Positions 19,548 through 29,419 of a stretch of DNA of 64,000 nt are shown one piece after another. Made by a program: the position numbers and the translations under genes. The notes beneath the pieces are model-generated. The model saw nothing but the letters and a program-made list of their open reading frames with translations. It had not been told where the DNA came from and searched no databases. The stretch's first letter is position 1. Each line of letters begins with the position of its first letter. The DNA lies in contig NZ_CP012382.1 in assembly GCF_001267885.1 (NCBI RefSeq), positions 4,513,001 through 4,577,000 of the forward strand. The letters run 5' to 3'. The stretch comes from Streptomyces ambofaciens ATCC 23877 (GTDB taxonomy: Bacteria > Actinomycetota > Actinomycetes > Streptomycetales > Streptomycetaceae).

Positions 19548-20381
19548 GTGCCGACACGCCGGCGGATCACCGCACGCAACGCCCGTTTCCAGCAGTGGGA
19601 GGCGCTGCTGGGCAACCGGAACAAGCGCACGCGCGCGAAGGAGTTCCTGGTCCAGGGAGTGCGTCCGATCTCCTTGGCGGTGCGGTACGGATGGCCCGTC
19701 AAGGCGCTGATCCACGACGACCGGCGGGAGCTGTCGCCGTGGGCGCGGGAGCTGCTGCGCGAGGTCGACGCCGAGCAGGTGGCGATGGCGCCCGAGCTCC
19801 TGGCGGAGCTGGGGGAGAAGAACGAGAGCGCGCCGGAGGTCGTCGCCGTCGTCGAGATGCCGGCCGACGACCTGGACCGGCTCCACGTCGACGGCGATTT
19901 CCTGGGCGTCGTGTTCGACCGGCCGACGAGTCCGGGGAACATCGGCAGCATCATCCGGTCCGCGGACGCCTTCGGGGCGGGCGGGCTCATCGTGTCCGGG
20001 CACGCCGCGGACGTCTACGACCCCAAGTCGGTGCGGGCCAGCACCGGCTCCCTGTTCGCCCTGCCGGCCGTGCGGGTGGGGTCGCCCGGCACCGTCATGG
20101 ACTGGGTCGCCGCGCGGCGTGCCGAGGGGCGGCCGATCGTGCTGGTCGGCACGGACGAGAAGGGCGAGTGCGAGGTCTTCGACTTCGACTTCACCCAGCC
20201 GGTGCTGCTGCTGGTCGGCAACGAGACGTCCGGGCTCAGCAGCGCCTGGCGAGACCTGTGCGACCACACCGTCAGCATCCCGATGACCGGGTCCGCGAGC
20301 TCCCTGAACGCCGCCAACGCGGCGACCGCCGTGCTGTACGAGGCGCACCGGCAGCGCCTCGTCGCCGCGAGGCGCGCCTGA
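19548..20381 (+). CDS. TrmH/SpoU-family RNA 2'-O-ribose methyltransferase
   Basis: 277 residues from GTG at 19548, with GGAGGACC upstream. The SPOUT knot motifs are present: motif 1 DRPTSPGNIGSIIRSADAFG (about 125-144), motif 2 LLVGNETSGLS (about 222) and motif 3 IPMTGSASSLNAANAATAV (about 245). The N-terminal L30e-like substrate domain is at 1-110. Substrate may be 23S rRNA; the thiostrepton-resistance methyltransferases belong to the same superfamily, but nothing here shows resistance. Divergent from the DUF4396 gene. Confidence 0.9.
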   Translation: MPTRRRITARNARFQQWEALLGNRNKRTRAKEFLVQGVRPISLAVRYGWPVKALIHDDRRELSPWARELLREVDAEQVAMAPELLAELGEKNESAPEVVAVVEMPADDLDRLHVDGDFLGVVFDRPTSPGNIGSIIRSADAFGAGGLIVSGHAADVYDPKSVRASTGSLFALPAVRVGSPGTVMDWVAARRAEGRPIVLVGTDEKGECEVFDFDFTQPVLLLVGNETSGLSSAWRDLCDHTVSIPMTGSASSLNAANAATAVLYEAHRQRLVAARRA

Positions 20382-20384
20382 CGG

Positions 20385-20804
20385 TCAGAAGGCGGCGAGC
20401 CGTGCCAGGCCCCACAGGATGATCAGGTCGAGTGCCATCACACTGATCGACCACAGCGGGTAGTAGGGGATGAACATGAACTGGGTCACGAGGCTGATCG
20501 CGGCGGTGGTCAGCCCGGCCGCGCGGCCCCAGCTCATGGACCGCAGCATTCCCACGCCCACGACGACCAGGGCGACGCCCACGACCAGGTGGATCCAGCC
20601 CCAGCTGGTGAGGTCGAACCGGTACTCGTAGTGCCGCGGCACCCCGTAGAGACGGTCCTCGGCGATGCCGGTGATGCCCTGGAGGATGCTCAGCACGCCG
20701 CTGACGAGCAGCGGCACGCCGAAGTACCGCAGCGGCCCGGCCGCTCGCCCGTCGTCGCGGTCGGGGCCGGTCTCGTGCCGTGCTCCATGGGGCATGTCCA
20801 CCAT
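20385..20804 (-). CDS. DUF7144-like small membrane protein
   Basis: 139 residues with four hydrophobic helices: GVPLLVSGVLSILQGITGI, WIHLVVGVALVVVGVGML, AAGLTTAAISLVTQFMFI and ISVMALDLIILWGLARL. YEYRFDLTSWGWIHL and the PYYPLWS(I) motif are the conserved core of a family common in streptomycetes. The ATG at 20804 and one at 20795 are both possible. Function unknown. Convergent with the TrmH gene, the stops being only 3 bp apart. Confidence 0.85.
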   Translation of the reverse strand: MVDMPHGARHETGPDRDDGRAAGPLRYFGVPLLVSGVLSILQGITGIAEDRLYGVPRHYEYRFDLTSWGWIHLVVGVALVVVGVGMLRSMSWGRAAGLTTAAISLVTQFMFIPYYPLWSISVMALDLIILWGLARLAAF

Positions 20805-21260
20805 GACCTCTCAACCCTTCGTCTTCGCGCGATGGTCACCGCGCCCCACGGCGCGGGCGGGGGGCGGGCGCGTCCGTCACGGTCACAGCGTCACCCCGGC
20901 GTGGCCGCGCGGCGACCGCACCGGGGCCGTACGGGGGCCGTACGGGTCTGCTCCGGCGTCCGCGCACGATCGGGGCCGTACGGGTCCTCCTCCGGCGCCC
21001 CTGCGCGACCGGCGAGGCCCTTCGCTCCCTCGCTCGGCACCACGCACCGCCTTGCGTGGTGCCACACGGCACCCCATGGCACCCCATGGCACCAAGTGGC
21101 ACCCATCGGCGCCAGCAGGGACGTACGGACATGCCGATTCGGCCTCCCCCTGAGTTCTGCGTCTCGCATTTCCGCAGGTCAGGGCGATGGTGGCAAAACT
21201 TCTCCGATCAGGTGCCATGGCGGCTTGCGTGTGACGCCACGGTGGTGCCATGATGGCGTC
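20805..21260. other. Intergenic region rich in repeats and TGGTGCC-type motifs
   Basis: 455 bp with no convincing gene. It holds an imperfect tandem repeat of about 38 bp (20934-21010; GGGGCCGTACGGG occurs at 20923, 20934 and 20972), a perfect hairpin GGCACCACGCA/TGCGTGGTGCC (21036-21063), two exact copies of ACCCCATGGC (21071-21090), and further GGCACC words up to 21106. The right end carries the operator-like cluster of the RHH gene. Confidence 0.7.
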
Positions 21261-21261
21261 A
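21187..21261. promoter_or_regulatory. Operator-like cluster overlapping the RHH gene promoter and start
   Basis: Contains GGTGCCATGG (21211), an inverted repeat TGACGCCA/TGGCGTCA (21232-21239 and 21254-21261), and TGGTGCCA (21243-21250) between its arms. The right arm ends on the first base of the ATG at 21261, so a bound protein would block transcription or a leaderless start. Similar words recur at 26231-26358. Confidence 0.6.
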
Positions 21262-21782
21262 TGGACCTCACCCCGTATGTCGACACTCTCCGCCGTGAAC
21301 TGGCGGTGGCCGCCGAAGCCGGCGGCGAGGACGCCCGTGAGCTGGCCGAGAGGCTCACCGCGCCGCTGGAATCGGCGACTCGGCTGACCATGCTCCACGT
21401 GCTCTCCGCCGCGATGGACGAGATCACCCGTGAACTCGCTCCCGGCTCGGTCGACGTACGGCTGCGCGGACTGGACCCCGACTTCGTGGTGACGCCGCCG
21501 CCCACCGAAGGCGGCGCCCCCGTGGAGCCGGCCGTGCCCGCGGAACCGCTCAGGGCGCCGGCGGCTCCCGCCGACGGCGACGAGGGCGGCACCGCCCGCG
21601 TGAACCTGCGCCTCCCGGCCCACCTCAAGACGCGCGCCGAGGAGGCCGCGAGCCGCGAAGGACTGTCGGTCAACGCGTGGCTGGTACGCGCCGTGTCGGC
21701 CGCGGTCGAGGGCGGCGCCGGGCCCCGCACGACGGAGAAGGCCCACACCGTCGGGCAGAGCTTCACGGGCTGGGTGCGCTAG
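21261..21782 (+). CDS. Ribbon-helix-helix (HicB/Arc-like) regulator
   Basis: 173 residues. Residues 1-60 are helical and acidic (YVDTLRRELAVAAEAGGEDARELAERL), followed by a Pro/Ala linker; residues about 113-150 form an RHH DNA-binding unit, RVNLRLPAHLKTRAEEAASR then LSVNAWLVRAVSAAVEG, of the kind annotated as HicB-type antitoxin. No HicA toxin is adjacent, so it is more likely a plain repressor. The start ATG overlaps an inverted repeat, which suggests autoregulation. A DUF4097 gene follows 89 bp downstream. Confidence 0.85.
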   Translation: MDLTPYVDTLRRELAVAAEAGGEDARELAERLTAPLESATRLTMLHVLSAAMDEITRELAPGSVDVRLRGLDPDFVVTPPPTEGGAPVEPAVPAEPLRAPAAPADGDEGGTARVNLRLPAHLKTRAEEAASREGLSVNAWLVRAVSAAVEGGAGPRTTEKAHTVGQSFTGWVR

Positions 21783-21871
21783 GGCGCGCGGTCCGCACCT
21801 CGAAGACGCACAGCATCGCACCACGTCCCACCAGCGGGGACGCTCCCAGGACTCACGAGGACGGTACAGCC

Positions 21872-22714
21872 ATGCCTTCGTTCGACACTCCCGAACCGAT
21901 CGCGGTCAACGCCCACGTGGGCGCGGGTTCCATCCGTTTCACCGCGGGCGACCGACTCGACACCGTCGTCGAGGTGCGGCCGGGCGACCCCGGCCGGGAC
22001 AAGGACGTGCGGGCCGCCGAGCAGACCCGGATCGACTTCGCGGGCGGCGTCCTCACGATCAGCACGAAGGACCGCCGGATCATCGGGCCGACCGGCGTCG
22101 TCGACGTGACGGTGGAGCTGCCCGAGGGCTCGGACATCGACACGACCGGCTCCTGGACCCAGGTGCTCGGTGAGGGTCCCCTCGGTGAGGTCCGGGTGAA
22201 GACCTCGGGCGGCGACGTCCGCCTGGACACGACCGGTCCGCTCCGGCTCGCCGCCTCCCACGGCTCGGTCACCGTGGACCGGGTGGAGGGTACCGCCGAG
22301 ATCACCACCAGCTCCGGCAGCGTGCGCGTCGGGCTGGTGGAGGGCTCAGCGGACCTGAAGAACTCGCACGGCTCCACGACCGTCGGCGCCGCGCTGGGCG
22401 ACCTGCGGGTGAGCCACGCCAACGGCGACATCAACATCACCCGCGCCGAGGGCTCGCTCACCGCCACCACCGCCCACGGCACGCTGCGGGTGGGTGAGGT
22501 GGCACGCGGCGAGGTGCGGCTGGAGACCTCCTACGGCGCCATCGAGGTCGGCATCCGCGAGGGCACGGCCGCCTGGCTCGACGCGCACTCGGACGCCGGG
22601 CGGGTGCGCAACACGCTCACCGCGTCCGACAACCCCGGGGAGAGCGAGGACACCGTCAAGATCCGTGCCCGCACGCGGTACGGCAACATCGACGTCCACC
22701 GCGCCAAGGTCTGA
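21872..22714 (+). CDS. DUF4097-family beta-strand repeat protein
   Basis: 280 residues with no signal peptide or membrane helix. From about 100 the sequence is a run of short beta repeats: GEVRVKTSGGDVRLDTTG, LRLAASHGSVTVDRVEG, AEITTSSGSVRVGLVEG, LKNSHGSTTVGAALG, and so on, a parallel beta-helix pattern typical of DUF4097/YvlB-like proteins. Members are often encoded with membrane proteins or ABC transporters; biochemical role is unknown. It lies between the RHH gene and, across the IS110 element, the DrrAB-type transporter. Confidence 0.88.
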   Translation: MPSFDTPEPIAVNAHVGAGSIRFTAGDRLDTVVEVRPGDPGRDKDVRAAEQTRIDFAGGVLTISTKDRRIIGPTGVVDVTVELPEGSDIDTTGSWTQVLGEGPLGEVRVKTSGGDVRLDTTGPLRLAASHGSVTVDRVEGTAEITTSSGSVRVGLVEGSADLKNSHGSTTVGAALGDLRVSHANGDINITRAEGSLTATTAHGTLRVGEVARGEVRLETSYGAIEVGIREGTAAWLDAHSDAGRVRNTLTASDNPGESEDTVKIRARTRYGNIDVHRAKV

Positions 22715-22799
22715 CGGACCCGCCCACGGACCACCCCCCGCTCCCCGCGCTTCACCCCCGTTATCTTTTTCGCGGTCCTGCAAGAGGGCCGCTGGCCTC

Positions 22800-23018
22800 C
22801 GGGCCCGGCATGACTGTTGCCCCCTGTCGATGGGATGACCTGGGGGGTGGTGTCACCGGGTCCGAGGGGTACCGTCGGAGACGCTGATCAGAGGTCCGAC
22901 CACCGTCCGGCCGGGCGCAATGCCAGGCCGCTCGCGGGCGGCAGGTCTGCATAACGTGGATGCGCGAGAACGGCTCCCGACCTTGAGGCCGGCACGCATC
23001 GACACATGTGGGGGCACG
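22800..23018 (+). ncRNA. Candidate IS110 bridge RNA region
   Basis: In IS110-group elements the non-coding stretch before the transposase encodes a structured bridge RNA whose loops pair with target and donor DNA. This 219-bp stretch is the right size and place, has no gene, and contains self-complementary GC-rich segments (for example GGTGTCACC and GGTCCGACC/CGGTCCGG-like words). The RNA ends and loops were not determined; this is inferred from family knowledge. Confidence 0.4.
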
Positions 23019-24221
23019 GTGATCAGCATCGACGGGGTGGGCGTCTTCCTGGGCCTGGACGTCGGCAAGCAGACGCATCACGGCCACGGCCTGACCCCGG
23101 CCGGGAAGAAGGTGTTCGACAAGCAGCTGCCGAACAGCGAACCGAAGCTGCGGGCTGTCTTCGACAAGCTCACGGCCAAGTTCGGCACCGTCCTGGTGAT
23201 CGTGGACCAGCCCGCCTCCATCGGCGCCCTCCCACTGACCGTCGCCCGGGACGCCGGCTGCCAGGTCGCCTACCTGCCCGGACTGGCGATGCGCCGGATC
23301 GCCGACCTCTACCCGGGCGAGGCCAAGACCGACGCGAAGGACGCCGCGGTCATTGCGGACGCTGCCCGCACCATGCCCCACACCCTGCGCACCCTCGACC
23401 TGACCGATGAGGTCACCGCGGAGCTGACCATGCTGGTCGGCTTCGACCAGGACCTCGCAGGCGAGGCCAACCGCACCTCCAACCGCATCCGCGGCCTGCT
23501 CACCCAGTTCCACCCCAGCCTGGAGCGCGTCCTCGGCCCGCGCCTGGACCATCCGGCAGTGACCTGGCTCCTCGAGCGTTACGGATCCCCGCAAGCACTC
23601 CGCAAAGCGGGCCGCCGCAAGCTGGTCGAGGTCGTCCGCCCGAGAGCCCCGCGCATGGCCGAGCGGCTGGTCGACGACACCTTCACCGCACTCGACGAGC
23701 AGACCGTCGTCGTCCCGGGCACCGGCACCCTCGACGTGATCGTCCCGTCGCTGGCGAAGTCGCTGGCCGCCGTTCACGAACAACGCCGGGCCCTGGAAAC
23801 GCGGATTGAGGCACTGCTGGAGGCCCACCCTCTTTCCCAGGTCCTGACCTCGATGCCCGGCATCGGCGTCAGGACCGCCGCAGTCCTCCTGGCCACCGTC
23901 GGCGACGGCAGCAGCTTTCCCACCGCCGCCCACCTGGCCTCCTACGCCGGCCTCGCCCCGGTAACCCGGCAGTCCGGCACGTCGATCCACGGCGAGCACG
24001 CCCCCAGAGGCGGCAACCGGCAGCTGAAACGAGCGATGTTCCTCTCCGCGTTCGCAGCCCTCCACGACCCCGCCTCCCGCACCTACTACGACCGCTGCCG
24101 AGCCCGCGGCAAAACCCACACCCAGGCCCTCCTCCGCCTCGCCCGCCATCGCATCAGCGTCCTGTTCGCCCTGCTCCGCGACGGAACCTTCTACGAGCCG
24201 AGGAGCCCTCGACTCGCTTGA
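23019..24221 (+). CDS. IS110-family transposase (DEDD RuvC-like)
   Basis: 400 residues from GTG at 23019. The N-terminal DEDD_Tnp_IS110 domain begins FLGLDVGKQTHH (catalytic Asp14), with VIVDQPAS and KTDAKDAAVIAD (D-x-x-D) completing the acidic set. A coiled-coil linker follows, then the Transposase_20 domain with MPGIGVRTAAVLLATVGD, YAGLAPVTRQSG and GGNRQLKRAMF; the catalytic Ser of this family lies in this region. No frameshift or stop interrupts it, so it looks intact. Codon use is slightly less GC3-biased than the surrounding genes. Confidence 0.95.
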   Translation: MISIDGVGVFLGLDVGKQTHHGHGLTPAGKKVFDKQLPNSEPKLRAVFDKLTAKFGTVLVIVDQPASIGALPLTVARDAGCQVAYLPGLAMRRIADLYPGEAKTDAKDAAVIADAARTMPHTLRTLDLTDEVTAELTMLVGFDQDLAGEANRTSNRIRGLLTQFHPSLERVLGPRLDHPAVTWLLERYGSPQALRKAGRRKLVEVVRPRAPRMAERLVDDTFTALDEQTVVVPGTGTLDVIVPSLAKSLAAVHEQRRALETRIEALLEAHPLSQVLTSMPGIGVRTAAVLLATVGDGSSFPTAAHLASYAGLAPVTRQSGTSIHGEHAPRGGNRQLKRAMFLSAFAALHDPASRTYYDRCRARGKTHTQALLRLARHRISVLFALLRDGTFYEPRSPRLA

Positions 24222-24316
24222 CGAAGGACATAGAGGCACCCCCCAACGCTCCTCCCGATCACCCGTCCCGGTCTCCCGGTCTCCCGGTCATCCCACTCCT
24301 CGAAGGGGAGGGCTCC

Positions 24317-25312
24317 ATGCCTTCATCTGTCATGCCCACGCCCAGGCAGGGGAACGGTCACCCCCCGTCGCCCGCCGCCGTCTCCGCCGTCGGTCTGCGT
24401 AAGTCGTACGGGGACAAGACCGTCCTCGACGGCATCGACCTGCACATCCCCGCCGGAACCGTCTTCGCGCTGCTCGGCCCGAACGGCGCCGGCAAGACCA
24501 CGGCGGTGAAGATCCTCTCCACCCTCGTCACGGCCGACGGCGGACAGGCCCGGGTCGCGGGCCACGACATCGCCACCGAGCCGCAGGCCGTTCGCGCCGC
24601 GATCGGCGTCACCGGGCAGTTCTCCGCCGTCGACGGCCTGATCACCGGCGAGGAGAACATGCTCCTCATGGCCGACCTGCACCACCTGCCCAGGGCCGAG
24701 GGGCGCCGGGTGACCGCCGGACTGCTGGAGCGGTTCGACCTCGTGGACGCCGCCAAGAGGCCCGCCTCCACCTACTCCGGCGGCATGAAGCGCCGTCTCG
24801 ACATCGCGATGACCCTGGTCGGGGACCCGCGGATCATCTTCCTCGACGAGCCGACCACCGGCCTCGACCCCCGCAGCCGCCACACCATGTGGGGCATCAT
24901 CCGCGAGCTGGTCACGGGCGGGGTGACGGTCTTCCTGACCACGCAGTACCTGGAGGAGGCCGACGAACTCGCCGACCGCATCGCCGTGCTGAACGACGGC
25001 AGGATCGCCGCGGAGGGCAGCGCCGAGGAGCTGAAGCGGCAGATCCCCGGCGGTCACGTGCGACTGCGTTTCTCCGACCCGGCCGCCTACCGGTCCGCCG
25101 CCACCGCGCTGCGCGAGGTCACCCGGGACGACGAGGCGCTCACGCTGCAGATCCCGTCCGGCGGCACCCAGCGCGAACTGCGCTCCCTCCTCGACTGGCT
25201 CGACGCCGCCGGTGTCGAGGCCGACGAGCTGACCGTGCACACCCCCGACCTCGACGACGTGTTCTTCGCCCTGACCGGCCCCACCGACCAGCCCGAGGAG
25301 ACCGTCCGATGA
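24317..25312 (+). CDS. ABC transporter ATPase, DrrA-like
   Basis: 331 residues from ATG at 24317 with a strong GGGGAGG ribosome-binding site; the frame continues upstream into the IS right end without a better start. Walker A GPNGAGKTT (about 54-62), Q-loop VTGQFSAVDGLITGEENM, signature YSGGMKRRLDIAM, Walker B IIFLDEPTTGLD and the H-switch replaced by Q (FLTTQYLEEAD, usual in DrrA). The DUF4162-type C-terminal domain ends with LDDVFFALTG. DrrAB systems export hydrophobic drugs or lipids. It overlaps the permease start by ATGA. IS110 now separates it from the upstream genes. Confidence 0.93.
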   Translation: MPSSVMPTPRQGNGHPPSPAAVSAVGLRKSYGDKTVLDGIDLHIPAGTVFALLGPNGAGKTTAVKILSTLVTADGGQARVAGHDIATEPQAVRAAIGVTGQFSAVDGLITGEENMLLMADLHHLPRAEGRRVTAGLLERFDLVDAAKRPASTYSGGMKRRLDIAMTLVGDPRIIFLDEPTTGLDPRSRHTMWGIIRELVTGGVTVFLTTQYLEEADELADRIAVLNDGRIAAEGSAEELKRQIPGGHVRLRFSDPAAYRSAATALREVTRDDEALTLQIPSGGTQRELRSLLDWLDAAGVEADELTVHTPDLDDVFFALTGPTDQPEETVR

Positions 25313-26127
25313 ACGCCGTCACGGCCGCCGCCCGCCCGAGCAGGCTCTCCCTCGCCGTGCGCGACTCCGGCACGATGCTGCGCCGCAATCTCCTGCACGC
25401 CCGGCGCTACCCGTCCTTGACGCTGAACCTGCTGCTCACGCCGGTCGTACTCCTGCTGCTCTTCGTCTACATCTTCGGCGACGTGATGAGCGCGGGGATC
25501 GGAGACGGCGGCGCCGACCGGTCCGAGTACATCGCCTACCTGGTGCCGGGTCTGCTGCTGATGACCATCGGCTCGACCACCATCGGCACCGCGGTCTCCG
25601 TCGCCATGGACATGAGCGAGGGCATCATCGCCCGGTTCCGCACGATGGCCATCCATCGCGGGTCGGTGCTCATCGGGCACGTCGTCGGCAGCGTCCTGCA
25701 GTCGATGGCGAGCGCGGTCTTCGTCGGCGCCGTCGCCGTGGCCATCGGCTTCCGCTCGACGGACGCCACCGCCCTGGAGTGGCTCGCGGCGCTGGGGCTG
25801 CTGGCGTCCGTCACTCTGGCGCTCACCTGGATCGCGGTCGGCATGGGCCTGGTCAGTCCGAACGCCGAGGCCGCAAGCAACAACGCGATGCCGCTGATCT
25901 TCCTCCCGTTCATCTCCAGCGCCTTCGTGCCGGTGGACGCGATGCCGGGATGGTTCCAGCCGATCGCCGAGTACCAGCCGTTCACCCCGGCCATCGAGAC
26001 CCTGCGCGGACTGCTGCTCGGCACCGAGATCGGCCACAACGGCTGGCTCGCGGCCGCCTGGTGCCTGCTCCTCACCGGCCTCGGCTACCTCTGGGCGAGG
26101 GCGACCTTCGACCGCGACCCGAAGTAA
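25309..26127 (+). CDS. ABC-2 type permease, DrrB-like
   Basis: 272 residues, ATG overlapping the ATPase stop (ATGA). Six hydrophobic segments of the ABC2_membrane fold: LNLLLTPVVLLLLFVYIFG, YLVPGLLLMTIGSTTIGTAV, SVLQSMASAVFVGAVAVAIGF, WLAALGLLASVTLALTWIAVGMGL, MPLIFLPFISSAFVPV and WLAAAWCLLLTGLGYLWA. VDAMPGWFQPIAEYQPFTP is the conserved loop of DrrB/NodJ-type permeases. With the ATPase it forms a complete exporter; substrate unknown. Confidence 0.92.
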   Translation: MNAVTAAARPSRLSLAVRDSGTMLRRNLLHARRYPSLTLNLLLTPVVLLLLFVYIFGDVMSAGIGDGGADRSEYIAYLVPGLLLMTIGSTTIGTAVSVAMDMSEGIIARFRTMAIHRGSVLIGHVVGSVLQSMASAVFVGAVAVAIGFRSTDATALEWLAALGLLASVTLALTWIAVGMGLVSPNAEAASNNAMPLIFLPFISSAFVPVDAMPGWFQPIAEYQPFTPAIETLRGLLLGTEIGHNGWLAAAWCLLLTGLGYLWARATFDRDPK

Positions 26128-26176
26128 CCCGGACCGCCGGCGGGCCTCGTCCGCCCGGCGCCCGCACCCGTCCCAC

Positions 26177-26219
26177 CGGGGCGGCGTACACCGACACCGC
26201 GTCGGTGTACGCCGCCCCG
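26177..26219 (+). terminator. Strong terminator after the DrrAB operon
   Basis: A perfect 19-bp stem (CGGGGCGGCGTACACCGAC and complement) with a 5-nt loop, 50 bp after the permease stop. Confidence 0.85.
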
Positions 26220-26230
26220 TTCGTGTGCCC

Positions 26231-26358
26231 GGTGCCATGGCGCTGACCTGGGAAGAGAAGCCACCGGCCCGGGCTGTGGCGCCACTGTGGTGCATGATGG
26301 CGACGCCTGGCGCCAAAAGGAGTCGTAATGGCGCCATGTGTGTGCCATCATGGTGTCA
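26231..26358. promoter_or_regulatory. Cluster of TGGCGCCA palindromes before the GtrA-like gene
   Basis: TGGCGCCA occurs at 26277-26284, 26308-26315 and within ATGGCGCCAT at 26328-26337, with GGTGCCATGGCGC (26231) and TGCCATCATGGTGTCA (26343-26358) at the ends. These match the words before the RHH gene at 21187-21261, suggesting control by the same protein. The gene start is 70 bp downstream. Confidence 0.55.
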
Positions 26359-26427
26359 GCGCGAAAGCCTGCCGGCCGTGAGGCCGGGGCGCGTTCGCGG
26401 AGGGGACCGAAAACAGGGGGCGGGATC

Positions 26428-27396
26428 ATGGACACAGCGCGGAACCGGCGACAGGCGGCACCCGGCACCTGCACCGCCTTCGCACGCTTCGTGCTCTGCG
26501 GCGGCGGGGTGGGACTCGCCTCCAGCTTCGCCGTGGCGGCCCTCGCCTCCTGGCTGCCGTGGGCCCTGGCCAACGCCCTGGTCACCGCGGGCTCCACGCT
26601 CCTCGCCACCGAGCTGCACGCCCGCTTCACCTTCGGCGCGGGCCGCAGCGCGACCTGGCGCGAGCACGCGCAGTCGGCCGGCTCGGCGGCGGCGGCGTAC
26701 GCGGTCACCTGCGCGGCCGTGTTCGGCCTGCACTGCATGGTGGCGACGTCCGGTCCGGTGCTGGAGCAGGCCGTCTACCTGTCCGCCTCCGCCCTCGCCG
26801 GCGTCGCGCGGTTCGCGCTCCTGCGCCTGGTGGTCTTCGCGCGCACCCGGTCGCGGGCTTCGGGCGCCGAGGACCGCGCACCGGCCGAGGCGGCGGCCCG
26901 GCCCGCGGTGTCCGGCGCCGAGCGCCCGCACGGGGCACGTCGAGGGGCCTTGGTGCCGTACGGCACCAAGGCCCCGAAGGAACTGCAACACCATCTGCCG
27001 GCCCTAGTACTGCGCCGGCCTTCTGTTTCCGCACGGCCGCCCGGTACTGCTGCGGGGGTGCGGGGATCGCGAATGCGTGACCGGAGACCACCTGCCTGTC
27101 GATGTCCTGCGGTACCCGGGCTTCGTGCCTTCCGCCCGGGCGATCCTGATGGCGCTCGATCCTCCGTTCTTCCCTCTGAATCAATTGCCTGCGGGACCGG
27201 GTCCCGCTCGTACCACGGTGCTGCTGGCGGCGGCCCCTCATCACTGCGGGCCACCCGGTCCGGTCGTCAGCCCCGTCGCCGTCCTGCGACAACCCTGGCT
27301 TCGAGACTCCACCACCGGACCGTCATGCGGGTACTGCTGCCCGGCAGTTCGTGTCTGCCGGGCCTCGCTCGATCTCGACTACGAGAGAAACCATAA
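26428..27396 (+). CDS. GtrA-like membrane protein with anomalous C-terminal read-through
   Basis: From ATG at 26428, residues 1-145 form a GtrA-like unit of four hydrophobic helices ([80 protein letters not shown]). GtrA proteins are linked to lipid-linked sugar flipping. The frame continues for another 180 residues of Arg/Pro/Gly-rich sequence with no domain character, passing through a perfect 32-nt palindrome at 26944-26975 that looks like the gene's own terminator. The native stop was probably lost by a small indel near residue 150-175; the real end is uncertain. Confidence 0.65.
26944..26975 (+). terminator. Palindromic terminator inside the extended GtrA-like frame
   Basis: GGGGCCTTGGTGCC-GTAC-GGCACCAAGGCCCC is a perfect 14-bp stem, or one 32-nt palindrome counting the GTAC loop. 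It would normally mark the end of the GtrA-like gene. Confidence 0.7.
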
Positions 27397-27518
27397 CCAC
27401 GACGCCAGCGAATGTCTACTCCAGCGAGTACAGGTTTGGTGCGCTCGTCGATGAGGTATCCCTTGGGTGATCGGGGAGAGTCGTCGGACTGGCGCGGCAC
27501 GCTTCCCGGCGCAACGGC
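26976..27518. other. Stretch without a recognisable gene
   Basis: About 540 bp between the palindromic terminator and the terminator of the CBS/helicase operon. Frames open here give Arg/Pro-rich or otherwise unconvincing proteins. GC content falls locally (27380-27460) relative to neighbours. A perfect 9-bp hairpin GCCCGGCAG/CTGCCGGGC lies at 27339-27363. It could be decayed mobile DNA; I could not match it to an element. Confidence 0.5.
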
Positions 27519-27550
27519 CAGGGCCCCACCGGCGATCCGGTGGGGCCCTG
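27519..27550 (-). terminator. Terminator of the helicase-CBS operon
   Basis: A perfect 14-bp stem (CAGGGCCCCACCGG and complement) with loop CGAT, 16 bp beyond the CBS gene stop on the minus strand. Confidence 0.85.
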
Positions 27551-27565
27551 ACGTTTCCGCTCGGC

Positions 27566-27877
27566 TCAGGCGGCTGTGGCGGCCGGTGGAGCGAGGGGAC
27601 CGATGAGGTCGGCGATGTCCCGCAGGCGGATCCGGTCCGTGTATCCGGAGCTGTCCCGCACGGCCGTGAGACGGACTCCGTGGACCAGGCCGGTGCACAG
27701 GCCGTCCTCGTCGCGAACGACCAGATGCCCCGCACGTGCGGCGGTCATCACGGACAGCGCCACTTCCACGGTCATGTCCTCCCACACCTGGGGTCCGCCC
27801 GCGTCCGCGGGGTCGGCCGCGCTGCCGTGCGCGGGGTGGGTGCGAGCCGTGCGGAACTGCGTCTGGACCAGCGTCAA
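27566..27877 (-). CDS. CBS-domain small protein
   Basis: 103 residues from TTG at 27877, chosen because AGGAGG lies 6 nt upstream; an ATG at 27916 has no such site. The core (about 35-90) reads MTVEVALSVMTAARAGHLVVRDEDGLCTGLVHGVRLTAVRDS, the helix-strand pattern of one CBS motif, with part of a second. CBS pairs bind adenosyl ligands; a single short copy would need to dimerise. It lies 45 bp behind the DEAD-box helicase gene on the same strand, so it is probably co-transcribed with it. Confidence 0.75.
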   Translation of the reverse strand: MTLVQTQFRTARTHPAHGSAADPADAGGPQVWEDMTVEVALSVMTAARAGHLVVRDEDGLCTGLVHGVRLTAVRDSSGYTDRIRLRDIADLIGPLAPPAATAA

Positions 27878-27922
27878 AGGGTGCCTCCTGCGGAGATGGG
27901 CCGGCTTCCTGATCACGAGGGG

Positions 27923-29419
27923 TTATGCCGCCCCACCGAGGGCGGACCGCCCTGCGGCTGCGCGGCGGGTGGCCGAGGCGGGACGGCGCCGGCCGCGTGA
28001 GGTGGAGCCGCGCTTCTTGGGGCGCTCGGCCACGGGTGCGGTGATGACGACGGGGATGCCGGAGGGTGCCTGGGCGCCGGTGATGCGGTGGAGGTCCTCG
28101 GTGCCCGCGCGGACCTGGGTGGTCTGCGGGACGATGCCCGCGGTGGCCATGAGGCGGGTCATGCCGCGGCGCTGGTTGGGGGTGACCAGGGTGACGACGC
28201 TGCCGGACTCGCCGGCGCGGGCGGTGCGGCCGCCGCGGTGGAGGTAGTCCTTGTGGTCGGTGGGCGGGTCGACGTTGACGACGAGGTCGAGGCTGTCGAC
28301 GTGGATGCCGCGGGCCGCGACGTTGGTCGCCACCAGCACGCTCACGTGTCCGTCCTTGAACTGGGTGAGGGTGCGGGTGCGCTGCGGCTGGGACTTGCCT
28401 CCGTGCAGGGCGGCGGCCCGTACCCCGCTGTTGAGGAGGTGCTCGGTGAGGCGGTCGACGGCGTGCTTGGTGTCCAGGAACATCAGCACCCGGCCGTCGC
28501 GTGCGGCGATCTCGGTGGTGGCCGCGTGCTTGTCGGCGCCGTGGACGTGGAGCACGTGGTGCTCCATGGTCGTGACGGCGCCGGCCGAGGGGTCGACGGA
28601 GTGGACGACGGGGTCGCTGAGGTAGCGGCGCACGAGCAGGTCGACGTTGCGGTCCAGGGTGGCGGAGAACAGCATGCGCTGGCCTTCGGGGCGGACCTGG
28701 TCGAGCAGGGCGGTGACCTGCGGCATGAAGCCCATGTCGGCCATCTGGTCGGCCTCGTCCAGGACGGTGACGGCGACCTGGTCCAGGCGGCAGTCGCCGC
28801 GGGTGATGAGGTCCTTGAGACGCCCGGGGGTGGCGACGACGATCTCGGCCCCGCCGCGCAGCGCGCTCGCCTGCCGGCCGATGGGCATCCCGCCCACCAC
28901 GGTGGCCAGGCGCAGCTTCACCGAGCGGGCGTAGGGGGTGAGGGCGTCGGTGACCTGCTGGGCCAGCTCACGGGTGGGTACGAGCACCAGCCCCAGCGGC
29001 TGCCGGGCCTCGGCGCGCCGTCCGGCCGTGCGGGCCAGCAGGGCCAGCCCGAAGGCCAGGGTCTTGCCGGAACCGGTGCGCCCGCGGCCGAGGACGTCGC
29101 GGCCGGCGAGGGAGTTCGGCAGGGTGGCGGACTGGATCGGGAAGGGGACCGCCACGCCCTGCGAGCCGAGCGCGGCCAGCAGTTCCCGGGGCATGTCGAG
29201 ATCGGCGAAGGCCTCCGTGGAGGGCAGCGCGGGGGTGATCGTCTCGGGGAGGGCGAACTCGCCCTGCATCGCGGCGGGCCGGCGGCCGTGACCGGCGGAG
29301 CGGCTCGGTCCGCCGGAGCGGCGCGGGGCGGGCGAGCCGAAGCGGCTGTTGCCCCTGGCGGAGTCGCCGCCGTTGTTACGGGTGCGGGCGAAACGGTCGT
29401 TCGTACGTGTGCGGTTCAT
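27923..29419 (-). CDS. DEAD-box RNA helicase
   Basis: 498 residues. A basic, Gly/Arg/Asn-rich N-terminus (1-50) precedes the helicase core: Q-motif region VPFPIQSATLPNSLAGRD, motif I GRTGSGKT, Ia PTRELAQQ, Ib ATPGRLKD, II DEADQM (Asp-Glu-Ala-Asp), III SATL, IV VLMFLDTK, V ATNVAARGIH and VI HRGGRTARAG. A basic Arg-rich tail (SRGRRRPASATRRAAAGR) can bind RNA. It belongs to the RhlE/CsdA-like group. The cold-shock protein gene upstream on the same strand suggests a role in cold-induced RNA unwinding. Confidence 0.94.
   Translation of the reverse strand: MNRTRTNDRFARTRNNGGDSARGNSRFGSPAPRRSGGPSRSAGHGRRPAAMQGEFALPETITPALPSTEAFADLDMPRELLAALGSQGVAVPFPIQSATLPNSLAGRDVLGRGRTGSGKTLAFGLALLARTAGRRAEARQPLGLVLVPTRELAQQVTDALTPYARSVKLRLATVVGGMPIGRQASALRGGAEIVVATPGRLKDLITRGDCRLDQVAVTVLDEADQMADMGFMPQVTALLDQVRPEGQRMLFSATLDRNVDLLVRRYLSDPVVHSVDPSAGAVTTMEHHVLHVHGADKHAATTEIAARDGRVLMFLDTKHAVDRLTEHLLNSGVRAAALHGGKSQPQRTRTLTQFKDGHVSVLVATNVAARGIHVDSLDLVVNVDPPTDHKDYLHRGGRTARAGESGSVVTLVTPNQRRGMTRLMATAGIVPQTTQVRAGTEDLHRITGAQAPSGIPVVITAPVAERPKKRGSTSRGRRRPASATRRAAAGRSALGGAA

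Follow-up and report, generated by a model that had tools for sequence, protein, structure and literature searches.

A phased triple-box operator abutting the start codon of a ribbon-helix-helix regulator gene in Streptomyces ambofaciens, and its recurrence before further genes

In a stretch of 64,000 nucleotides from Streptomyces ambofaciens ATCC 23877 (contig NZ_CP012382.1; 4.513 to 4.577 Mb of an 8.39-Mb genome; the whole stretch is called the window below), we analyzed a run of genes that encodes, in order, a ribbon-helix-helix (RHH) regulator, a DUF4097 (Toastrack) protein, an IS110 transposase, a DrrA-type ATPase, an ABC-2 permease, and a weakly GtrA-like membrane protein. The promoter of the RHH gene carries three palindromic 8-bp boxes, one helical turn apart, that run into the start codon. 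The same triple box stands before the GtrA-like gene and, in other strains, before genes for MMPL transporters and cytochromes P450. The RHH protein is very probably an Arc/MetJ-like autorepressor of its own operon that also controls further transcription units via this triple box.

The features of the region are collected in Table 1. Each of the three boxes of the proximal operator fits TGRYRYCA, a pattern identical to its reverse complement, and the last box ends on the A of the RHH start codon. Upstream of these, two weaker boxes are followed, farther out, by a distal array in which the successive steps are 22, 20, 10, 10, and 10 bp. Because an operator abutting the gene of a regulator is the usual sign of autoregulation, the placement of the proximal operator suggests that the RHH protein controls its own promoter.

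Table 1. Operators, predicted promoter elements, genes, and mobile element of the region (positions in the window)
Feature	Position	Strand	Remarks
Distal box array	21035..21114		TGRYRYCA-like 8-mers at 21035, 21057, 21077, 21087, 21097, 21107
Two weaker boxes	21188..21217		21188 TGGTGGCA, 21210 AGGTGCCA; 22 bp apart, 22 bp before box 1 of the proximal operator
Predicted -35 element	21225..21230	+	TTGCGT; TTGC kept in relatives
Proximal operator	21232..21261	+	30 bp, three palindromic 8-mers in exact 11-bp steps: 21232 TGACGCCA, 21243 TGGTGCCA, 21254 TGGCGTCA
Predicted -10 element	21249..21254	+	CATGAT; within the proximal operator
RHH/HicB-type regulator gene	21261..21782	+	ATG start, 173 amino acids, predicted leaderless; Pfam HicB and structure model
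DUF4097 (Toastrack) gene	21872..22714	+	280 amino acids; PF13349, E = 2.8e-12, 47 bits (cut-off 22.9)
IS110-family element	about 22755..24244	+	transposase open reading frame 22920..24221; between DUF4097 and drrA
DrrA-type ABC ATPase	24317..25312	+	start codon picked by homology; TIGR01188
ABC-2 (DrrB-like) permease	25309..26127	+	PF01061, 88.7 bits
Upstream GtrA boxes	26230..26328		26230 CGGTGCCA, 26277 TGGCGCCA, 26308 TGGCGCCA; partial boxes at 26288 and 26298 seen by eye
GtrA operator	26329..26358	+	26329 TGGCGCCA, 26340 GTGTGCCA, 26351 TGGTGTCA; 11-bp period; 33.3 bits
GtrA-like membrane protein reading frame	26428..27396	+	PF04138, 23.9 bits for 26428..26910

A preliminary description of this DNA had reported a dense occurrence of TGGYGCCA-type words over the start of the RHH gene and before the GtrA-like gene, and the concentration proved stronger than it had stated: the exact word occurs in six places in the window (nine strand matches), and all six fall inside the two promoter regions. 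The three exact copies of TGGCGCCA that it gave before the GtrA-like gene were recovered at 26277, 26308, and 26329. Its coordinates were sound, but it had omitted both the distal array (21035 to 21114, immediately before its first stretch, with two of the exact words, at 21057 and 21087) and the IS110 element between the DUF4097 gene and drrA. The 8-mer is not over-represented in the window as a whole (shuffle mean, 6.09; 19 of 100 shuffles reach 9). For TGRYGCCATNATGGYGYCA at up to three mismatches, six matches were found versus 0.43 expected, all of them at the two triple boxes. Relaxing the word to TGRYRYCA with at least seven of eight positions matching, the densest 200-bp bins of the window start at 21001 (seven matches), 26201 (six), and 21201 (four), the mean per bin being 0.59. 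From 103 upstream regions of relatives, with that of this genome left out, we built a matrix of 30 positions; it scores 44.4 bits at 21232 and 33.3 bits at 26329, whereas first-order random sequence, over 2 Mb, reached 12.65 at best.

Over the whole genome, the operator core TGTGCCATSATGGYGYCA occurs at zero or one mismatch only at window positions 26341 and 21244, so the motif is not scattered over random intergenic regions, which the preliminary description had named as a finding that would count against it. At up to three mismatches the totals come near those of the reversed control (10 + 6 versus 8 + 4). With a second, earlier pattern, the sole exact match in the genome is the RHH operator, matches at up to two mismatches number 51 versus 40 in the control, and seven other loci taken from this pattern score at most 4.6 with the matrix. 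A model search of the genome at E values up to 1 gave two sites, at 21232 and 26277; such genome-wide searches are lossy, with 73 to 150 candidates scored per genome, and this one missed the site at 26329, so that the lack of a site among its results carries little weight.

The arrangement at the RHH promoter is conserved among relatives. We compared 104 distinct upstream regions, obtained after removal of duplicates from 110 loci: 30 including that of this genome, and 80 named loci that are the best 80 of 327 encoding an RHH relative (74 of the 80 are titled Streptomyces). Boxes with at least seven of eight positions matching stand at -29, -18, and -7 in 99, 99, and 99 of the regions, respectively, and all three occur jointly in 93, that of S. 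ambofaciens included. The ATG is kept in all 104, TTGC is present at -36 to -33 in 92, and 102 have the A and T of the -10-like element at -11 and -7. Four Shine-Dalgarno-like tetramers were looked for at -20 to -4, and none of the 104 regions has any of them; as the ATG, moreover, lies about 7 nucleotides past the -10-like element, the RHH transcript is predicted to be leaderless. Eleven regions fail the strict three-box test. In three (L030, L036, and L038) the middle box has a start like that of GTGTGCCA or ATGTGCCA, and in seven (L108, L039, L073, L098, L101, L105, and L035) a box is degenerate or shifted. The last, L032, has two boxes only, one apparently having been lost; these still abut the ATG, the TTG word lies 11 bp nearer than usual, and the promoter is either a natural two-box variant or a deletion. 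Distal boxes are likewise general: between -250 and -46 there are 295 exact boxes, distributed over 102 of the 104 regions, versus a mean of 9.7 and a maximum of 19 in 50 rounds of a resampled control. Separately, many relatives have a moderately conserved TTTCCGCAGGTCAG-like element between the distal and proximal boxes, at about -94 to -80.

The same placement was recovered outside the genus. In a class-wide draw, 76 of 246 genomes gave a match at an E value of 1e-15, and 24 loci were returned, of which 13 were tested, two within the genus and eleven belonging to two other families. In all 13, the best matrix site within 200 bp lies at -29, and a DUF4097 gene lies within the flank. Twelve of the sites score 19.7 to 40.4, and that of L303 is weak (3.6), its first box being one base off. 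The eleven loci from other families, whose RHH proteins are 55 to 65% identical, have boxes with at least seven matching positions at -29, -18, and -7 in 10, 11, and 8 cases, respectively.

The predicted protein suits such an operator. The Pfam HicB profile matches it at 21.6 bits (cut-off, 21), and an AlphaFold model, poor overall (predicted local distance difference test score [pLDDT], 54; predicted template modeling score, 0.35), ends in a beta-alpha-alpha unit made of a strand at residues 112 to 118 (pLDDT of about 50) and helices at 120 to 132 and 137 to 151 (about 67 to 78). Profile and model agree in pointing to a C-terminal ribbon-helix-helix. The strand reads R-V-N-L-R-L-P and the turn G-L-S-V-N; R113, N115, and R117 are invariant in 34 aligned rows, and R-[VI]-N-[LF]-R occupies the predicted strand in 17 of 21 rows of divergent relatives, three pairs of these rows being the same gene each. 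Two of the remaining four rows show another residue and two do not show the place. The first 80 or so residues of the protein are also strongly conserved. Foldseek gave no match at E values below 0.001, its 32 listed matches mixing RHH proteins with unrelated folds, and phmmer with the RHH part alone gave nothing significant (best E value, 0.94). TAL-effector repeats, brought up by a sequence-profile structure search, were rejected as spurious, as their scores are sums of subthreshold stretches of which none passes alone.

RHH dimers are known to act on palindromic or paired subsites, as in Arc of phage P22, with half-sites about one turn apart, and in MetJ, which occupies tandem 8-bp palindromes; the box anatomy described here fits both. 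The strand of Arc, FNLRWP, resembles the VNLRLP of the present protein, and the turn is close to that of Arc as well. Foldseek superposes two Arc chains (1bdv_B and 1par_A) on the model over 38 columns at 1.2 to 1.4 Å, with E values of 4.8 and 9.2, which are not significant. Unlike Arc and MetJ, the present protein adds a conserved N-terminal region of about 80 residues, and its operators comprise three or more boxes at 11 bp.

The GtrA-like gene and its operator were also compared among relatives. Only 4 of the 80 named loci have a GtrA homologue near the RHH gene (divergent and upstream in L043 and L049, downstream in L052 and L081), two further ones having a short 3' GtrA match only, and in all four the homologue has its own triple box upstream. 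A draw from the genus, in which 76 of 101 genomes gave some match at an E value of 0.001, returned 30 GtrA loci; 15 of these carry a triple box of 22 to 37 bits within 400 bp, and the other 15 score below zero. Of the 34 loci combined, of which one pair (L049 and L122) is identical, 19 thus have the triple box and 15 do not. In the tree, one side consists of nine rows without the operator; the opposite clade has 25 rows, 19 of them with it. The GtrA operators form a variant in which the middle box is RTGTGCCA in 17 of 19 cases and ATGCGCCA in 2, and CTCG replaces CTTGC in 10 of 19; they sit 39 to 86 bp from the presumed ATG. The RHH gene was detected in 66 of the 101 genomes, being present in 15 of 15 with an operator-bearing GtrA gene versus 51 of 86 others (Fisher test, 0.0009, uncorrected for phylogeny). 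In 10 of those 15 the GtrA gene lies away from the RHH gene: the distance is about 5 kb or less in 5 genomes, 6 have both genes on one contig but separated by at least 170 kb, and 4 have them on separate contigs.

These observations support the shared-operator interpretation of the preliminary description. Its expectation that the motif would recur before orthologous genes was borne out for RHH genes, both within the genus and outside it in two families, and for many GtrA genes, though in the main GtrA clade 6 of 25 rows lack the motif. Its view of all these genes as one unit was not upheld: the GtrA-like gene is a separate transcription unit, found near the RHH gene in few of the named loci, and the IS110 element splits the DUF4097 gene from drrA.

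Other strains extend the set of putative targets. The operator was found before cytochrome P450 genes in 3 of 24 P450 loci tested (G060, 41.8; G035, 36.4; and G081, 30.5), the third box in G035 falling right at the gene start, as for RHH, and before MMPL transporter genes in 2 of 24 MMPL loci tested (G042, 40.1, and G039, 32.8). S. albidochromogenes (L098) likewise has an MMPL gene with the operator (23.0), the product being 75% identical to that of G042. GtrA, MMPL, and P450 genes lie in cis with the RHH gene in some genomes and elsewhere, under the same operator, in others. The cis arrangements come from regions selected for RHH neighbors, with divergent RHH genes. They include RHH-DUF4097-GtrA-MMPL-DrrA-DrrB (L275), RHH-DUF4097-DrrA-DrrB-P450 (L276 to L279), RHH-DUF4097-DrrAB-MMPL (L274), RHH-P450-MMPL (L209), and RHH-MMPL (L212, and L213, matched over the first half of the RHH protein only).

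Several observations weigh against a regulon read by the RHH protein. The predicted strand is RIGLR in L212 and RITFR in L214. Most MMPL (22 of 24) and P450 (21 of 24) relatives have no operator of their own. Six GtrA orthologues of the operator-bearing clade lack it although four of their six genomes have the RHH gene, and within that clade operator and RHH gene are not significantly associated (15 of 15 versus 4 of 6; P = 0.07). In G039, the RHH promoter (L274) has no matrix match of at least 12, while its MMPL gene has one. In G081, finally, the operator-bearing P450 gene (contig C176; L273, 8314 to 8343) belongs to a genome in which no RHH gene was detected among the 88 of 91 candidates scored. 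This last case favors the idea that the boxes are read by a different DNA-binding protein, of which the RHH gene is just one target. So do the operator-less GtrA and P450 relatives, in which other common upstream words, such as GTGAAGGCAACGTAG and CATTGCATCAATTT, were noticed by eye (L128, L131, L261, L264, and L266 to L270); the same GtrA and P450 families may also belong to another regulon or answer to other regulators. We nevertheless regard this alternative as unlikely: 93 of 104 regions, as well as loci of two other families, have the triple box right against the RHH start, every genus-draw genome with an operator-bearing GtrA gene has the RHH gene, and palindromic boxes at one-turn spacing suit RHH dimers of the Arc and MetJ kind.

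The GtrA operator might instead be a functionless leftover copy of the RHH promoter, the two lying within 5.2 kb of each other in this genome. This is very improbable given that GtrA orthologues carry their own variant of the operator 39 to 86 bp from the presumed ATG and that, in 10 of 15 genus-draw genomes, they lie at least 170 kb away or on another contig. It is scarcely credible, too, that the RHH gene encodes the antitoxin of a HicAB-like toxin-antitoxin module. Most of its relatives carry the annotation of hypothetical protein or HicB-family antitoxin (many of the 120 matches listed, of 7,969, are named "toxin-antitoxin system HicB family antitoxin"), and it shares with these antitoxins a Pfam HicB match, here just over the cut-off. 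Its constant neighbor, however, is a DUF4097 gene and not a toxin gene; no HicA match was listed for the seven neighboring proteins scanned, which for DrrA means among the 25 NCBIfam families listed, in a scan that covered no small open reading frames; and the operator is common to other membrane-protein genes. That the boxes reflect nothing but chance or the composition of GC-rich intergenic DNA, as the unremarkable frequency of the TGGYGCCA 8-mer alone in the window might suggest, is already refuted by their phased conservation across many genomes, and triple-box scores of 33 to 44 lie far above the random maximum, leaving this reading with virtually no probability.

Turning to the operon itself, a DUF4097 gene follows RHH in 79 of the 80 named loci, which makes it the most constant partner, and DrrA and DrrB follow in 73 and 60, some contigs ending early. 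Solely because of this constancy of the neighborhood, the conserved N-terminal region of about 80 residues of the RHH protein appears as a candidate contact for the Toastrack protein. The DrrA assignment is founded on TIGR01188, at 316.9 bits against a cut-off of 312.45 for the open reading frame read from 24218; the permease exceeds the cut-off of the general ABC2_membrane family and falls below that of TIGR01247 (DrrB; 69.3 versus 223.05 bits), so that it is called DrrB-like only. In this genome, RHH, Toastrack, ATPase, and permease genes form one run interrupted by the IS110 element. Three near-identical copies of this element lie elsewhere in the genome (at 566049, 4441894, and 7371743), along with a partial one at 240542; its left end was placed from two copies, the third matching 19 bp farther left. 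No IS110 match was found in the 80 named loci. With the element sitting between the DUF4097 gene and drrA, the RHH promoter of this strain may no longer be coupled to drrAB.

The GtrA-like protein falls below the PF04138 cut-off of 26.1 bits, both in the window (23.9) and in three orthologues (20.5 to 24.3). Homology searches used residues 1 to 161, matches stop at about 141 to 160, and we are unsure of the true 3' end of the reading frame. That frame passes through a block of about 250 bp (26938 to 27187) that contains a perfect 14-bp hairpin (26944 to 26975) and is 80% identical to stretches in L094 (15509 to 15756) and L051 (18736 to 18973); the block and both counterparts each lie 3' of a DEAD-box helicase gene. 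Rfam models gave no match at gathering score over 20380 to 28100, this block included.

We propose the following mechanism. RHH dimers would occupy the palindromic TGRYRYCA boxes 11 bp apart, one helical turn, and three adjacent boxes would cover the -35/-10 spacer, the -10 element, and the start of the predicted leaderless promoter, so that occupancy would shut off the operon of RHH, Toastrack protein, and DrrAB-type exporter. Binding and repression are predicted here from sequence. The same triple box would place the GtrA-like gene under this control here, and MMPL transporters and P450s in other strains. The distal array probably stabilizes or loops the complex. As to the trigger of derepression, we speculate that it is probably a membrane-active or lipophilic compound, or envelope stress, and that the Toastrack protein, as the most constant partner, would be the likely signal relay or antirepressor.

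A bolder view, which we hold only tentatively and consider rather doubtful, is that RHH and Toastrack proteins work together as a sensing pair widespread in Actinobacteria, in which Toastrack frees leaderless promoters and whose operator has spread to varied gene sets. The Toastrack protein would sense membrane disturbance or a lipophilic drug and pull the RHH repressor off. With the first base of the start codon inside the operator, occupancy would block the promoter plus the start of the message. The spread of the operator would then plug the pair into detoxification and export sets (DrrAB, GtrA-like, MMPL, and P450) that differ by species.

An RHH-Toastrack-ABC operon in Actinobacteria is already in print, described as similar to an operon of Toastrack, ABC ATPase, permease, and GntR genes but with an RHH regulator, in a 2024 paper that proposes Toastrack as an intracellular platform for sub-membrane signaling (PMC11237479). 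The present operon fits that description; the passages of that paper on the operon mention no operator, promoter architecture, or GtrA, MMPL, or P450 targets. In the literature searched, whose coverage excludes most subscription journals, we found no description of the operator, the predicted leaderless promoter, or the further targets. In Streptomyces coelicolor, the TetR-SclAB set (SCO4358-4360) likewise places a DrrAB-type exporter beside its regulator; SclAB is listed for acyl depsipeptide resistance (PMC3924187), and sco4358-4360 is given as a TetR-ABC set affecting secondary metabolism (PMC11272600). It differs in that the regulator is of the TetR type rather than RHH, and the relevant passages of these papers mention no Toastrack or GtrA gene. 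SCO4358-4360 was considered as the S. coelicolor version of the RHH operon and dropped, since the passages show TetR-SclAB. In the lunaemycin cluster, as its published gene list presents it, lun1 to lun3 consecutively encode a 177-amino-acid TmcL-like protein annotated as of unknown function, a DUF4097 protein, and a P450, and the other end has a DrrA gene (Lun26) followed by a second DUF4097 gene (Lun27) (PMC9866976). From its size and neighbors only, as given there, Lun1 would be an RHH homologue.

RHH autorepressors with a small regulon are a known kind, to which the present protein is predicted to belong; its fusion of operator and start codon is unusual, and the arrangement is widely conserved. 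A regulator present in 66 of 101 genomes drawn from the genus, labeled mostly as hypothetical or as an antitoxin, thereby gains a precise operator code and a predicted regulon. The code links the DrrAB-type exporter, the Toastrack protein, and P450, MMPL, and GtrA genes, some of which types also occur in the lunaemycin cluster as it is presented in PMC9866976, and so offers a means of finding co-regulated genes from sequence. It would also provide a clean case for the study of tandem RHH repressors on predicted leaderless promoters.

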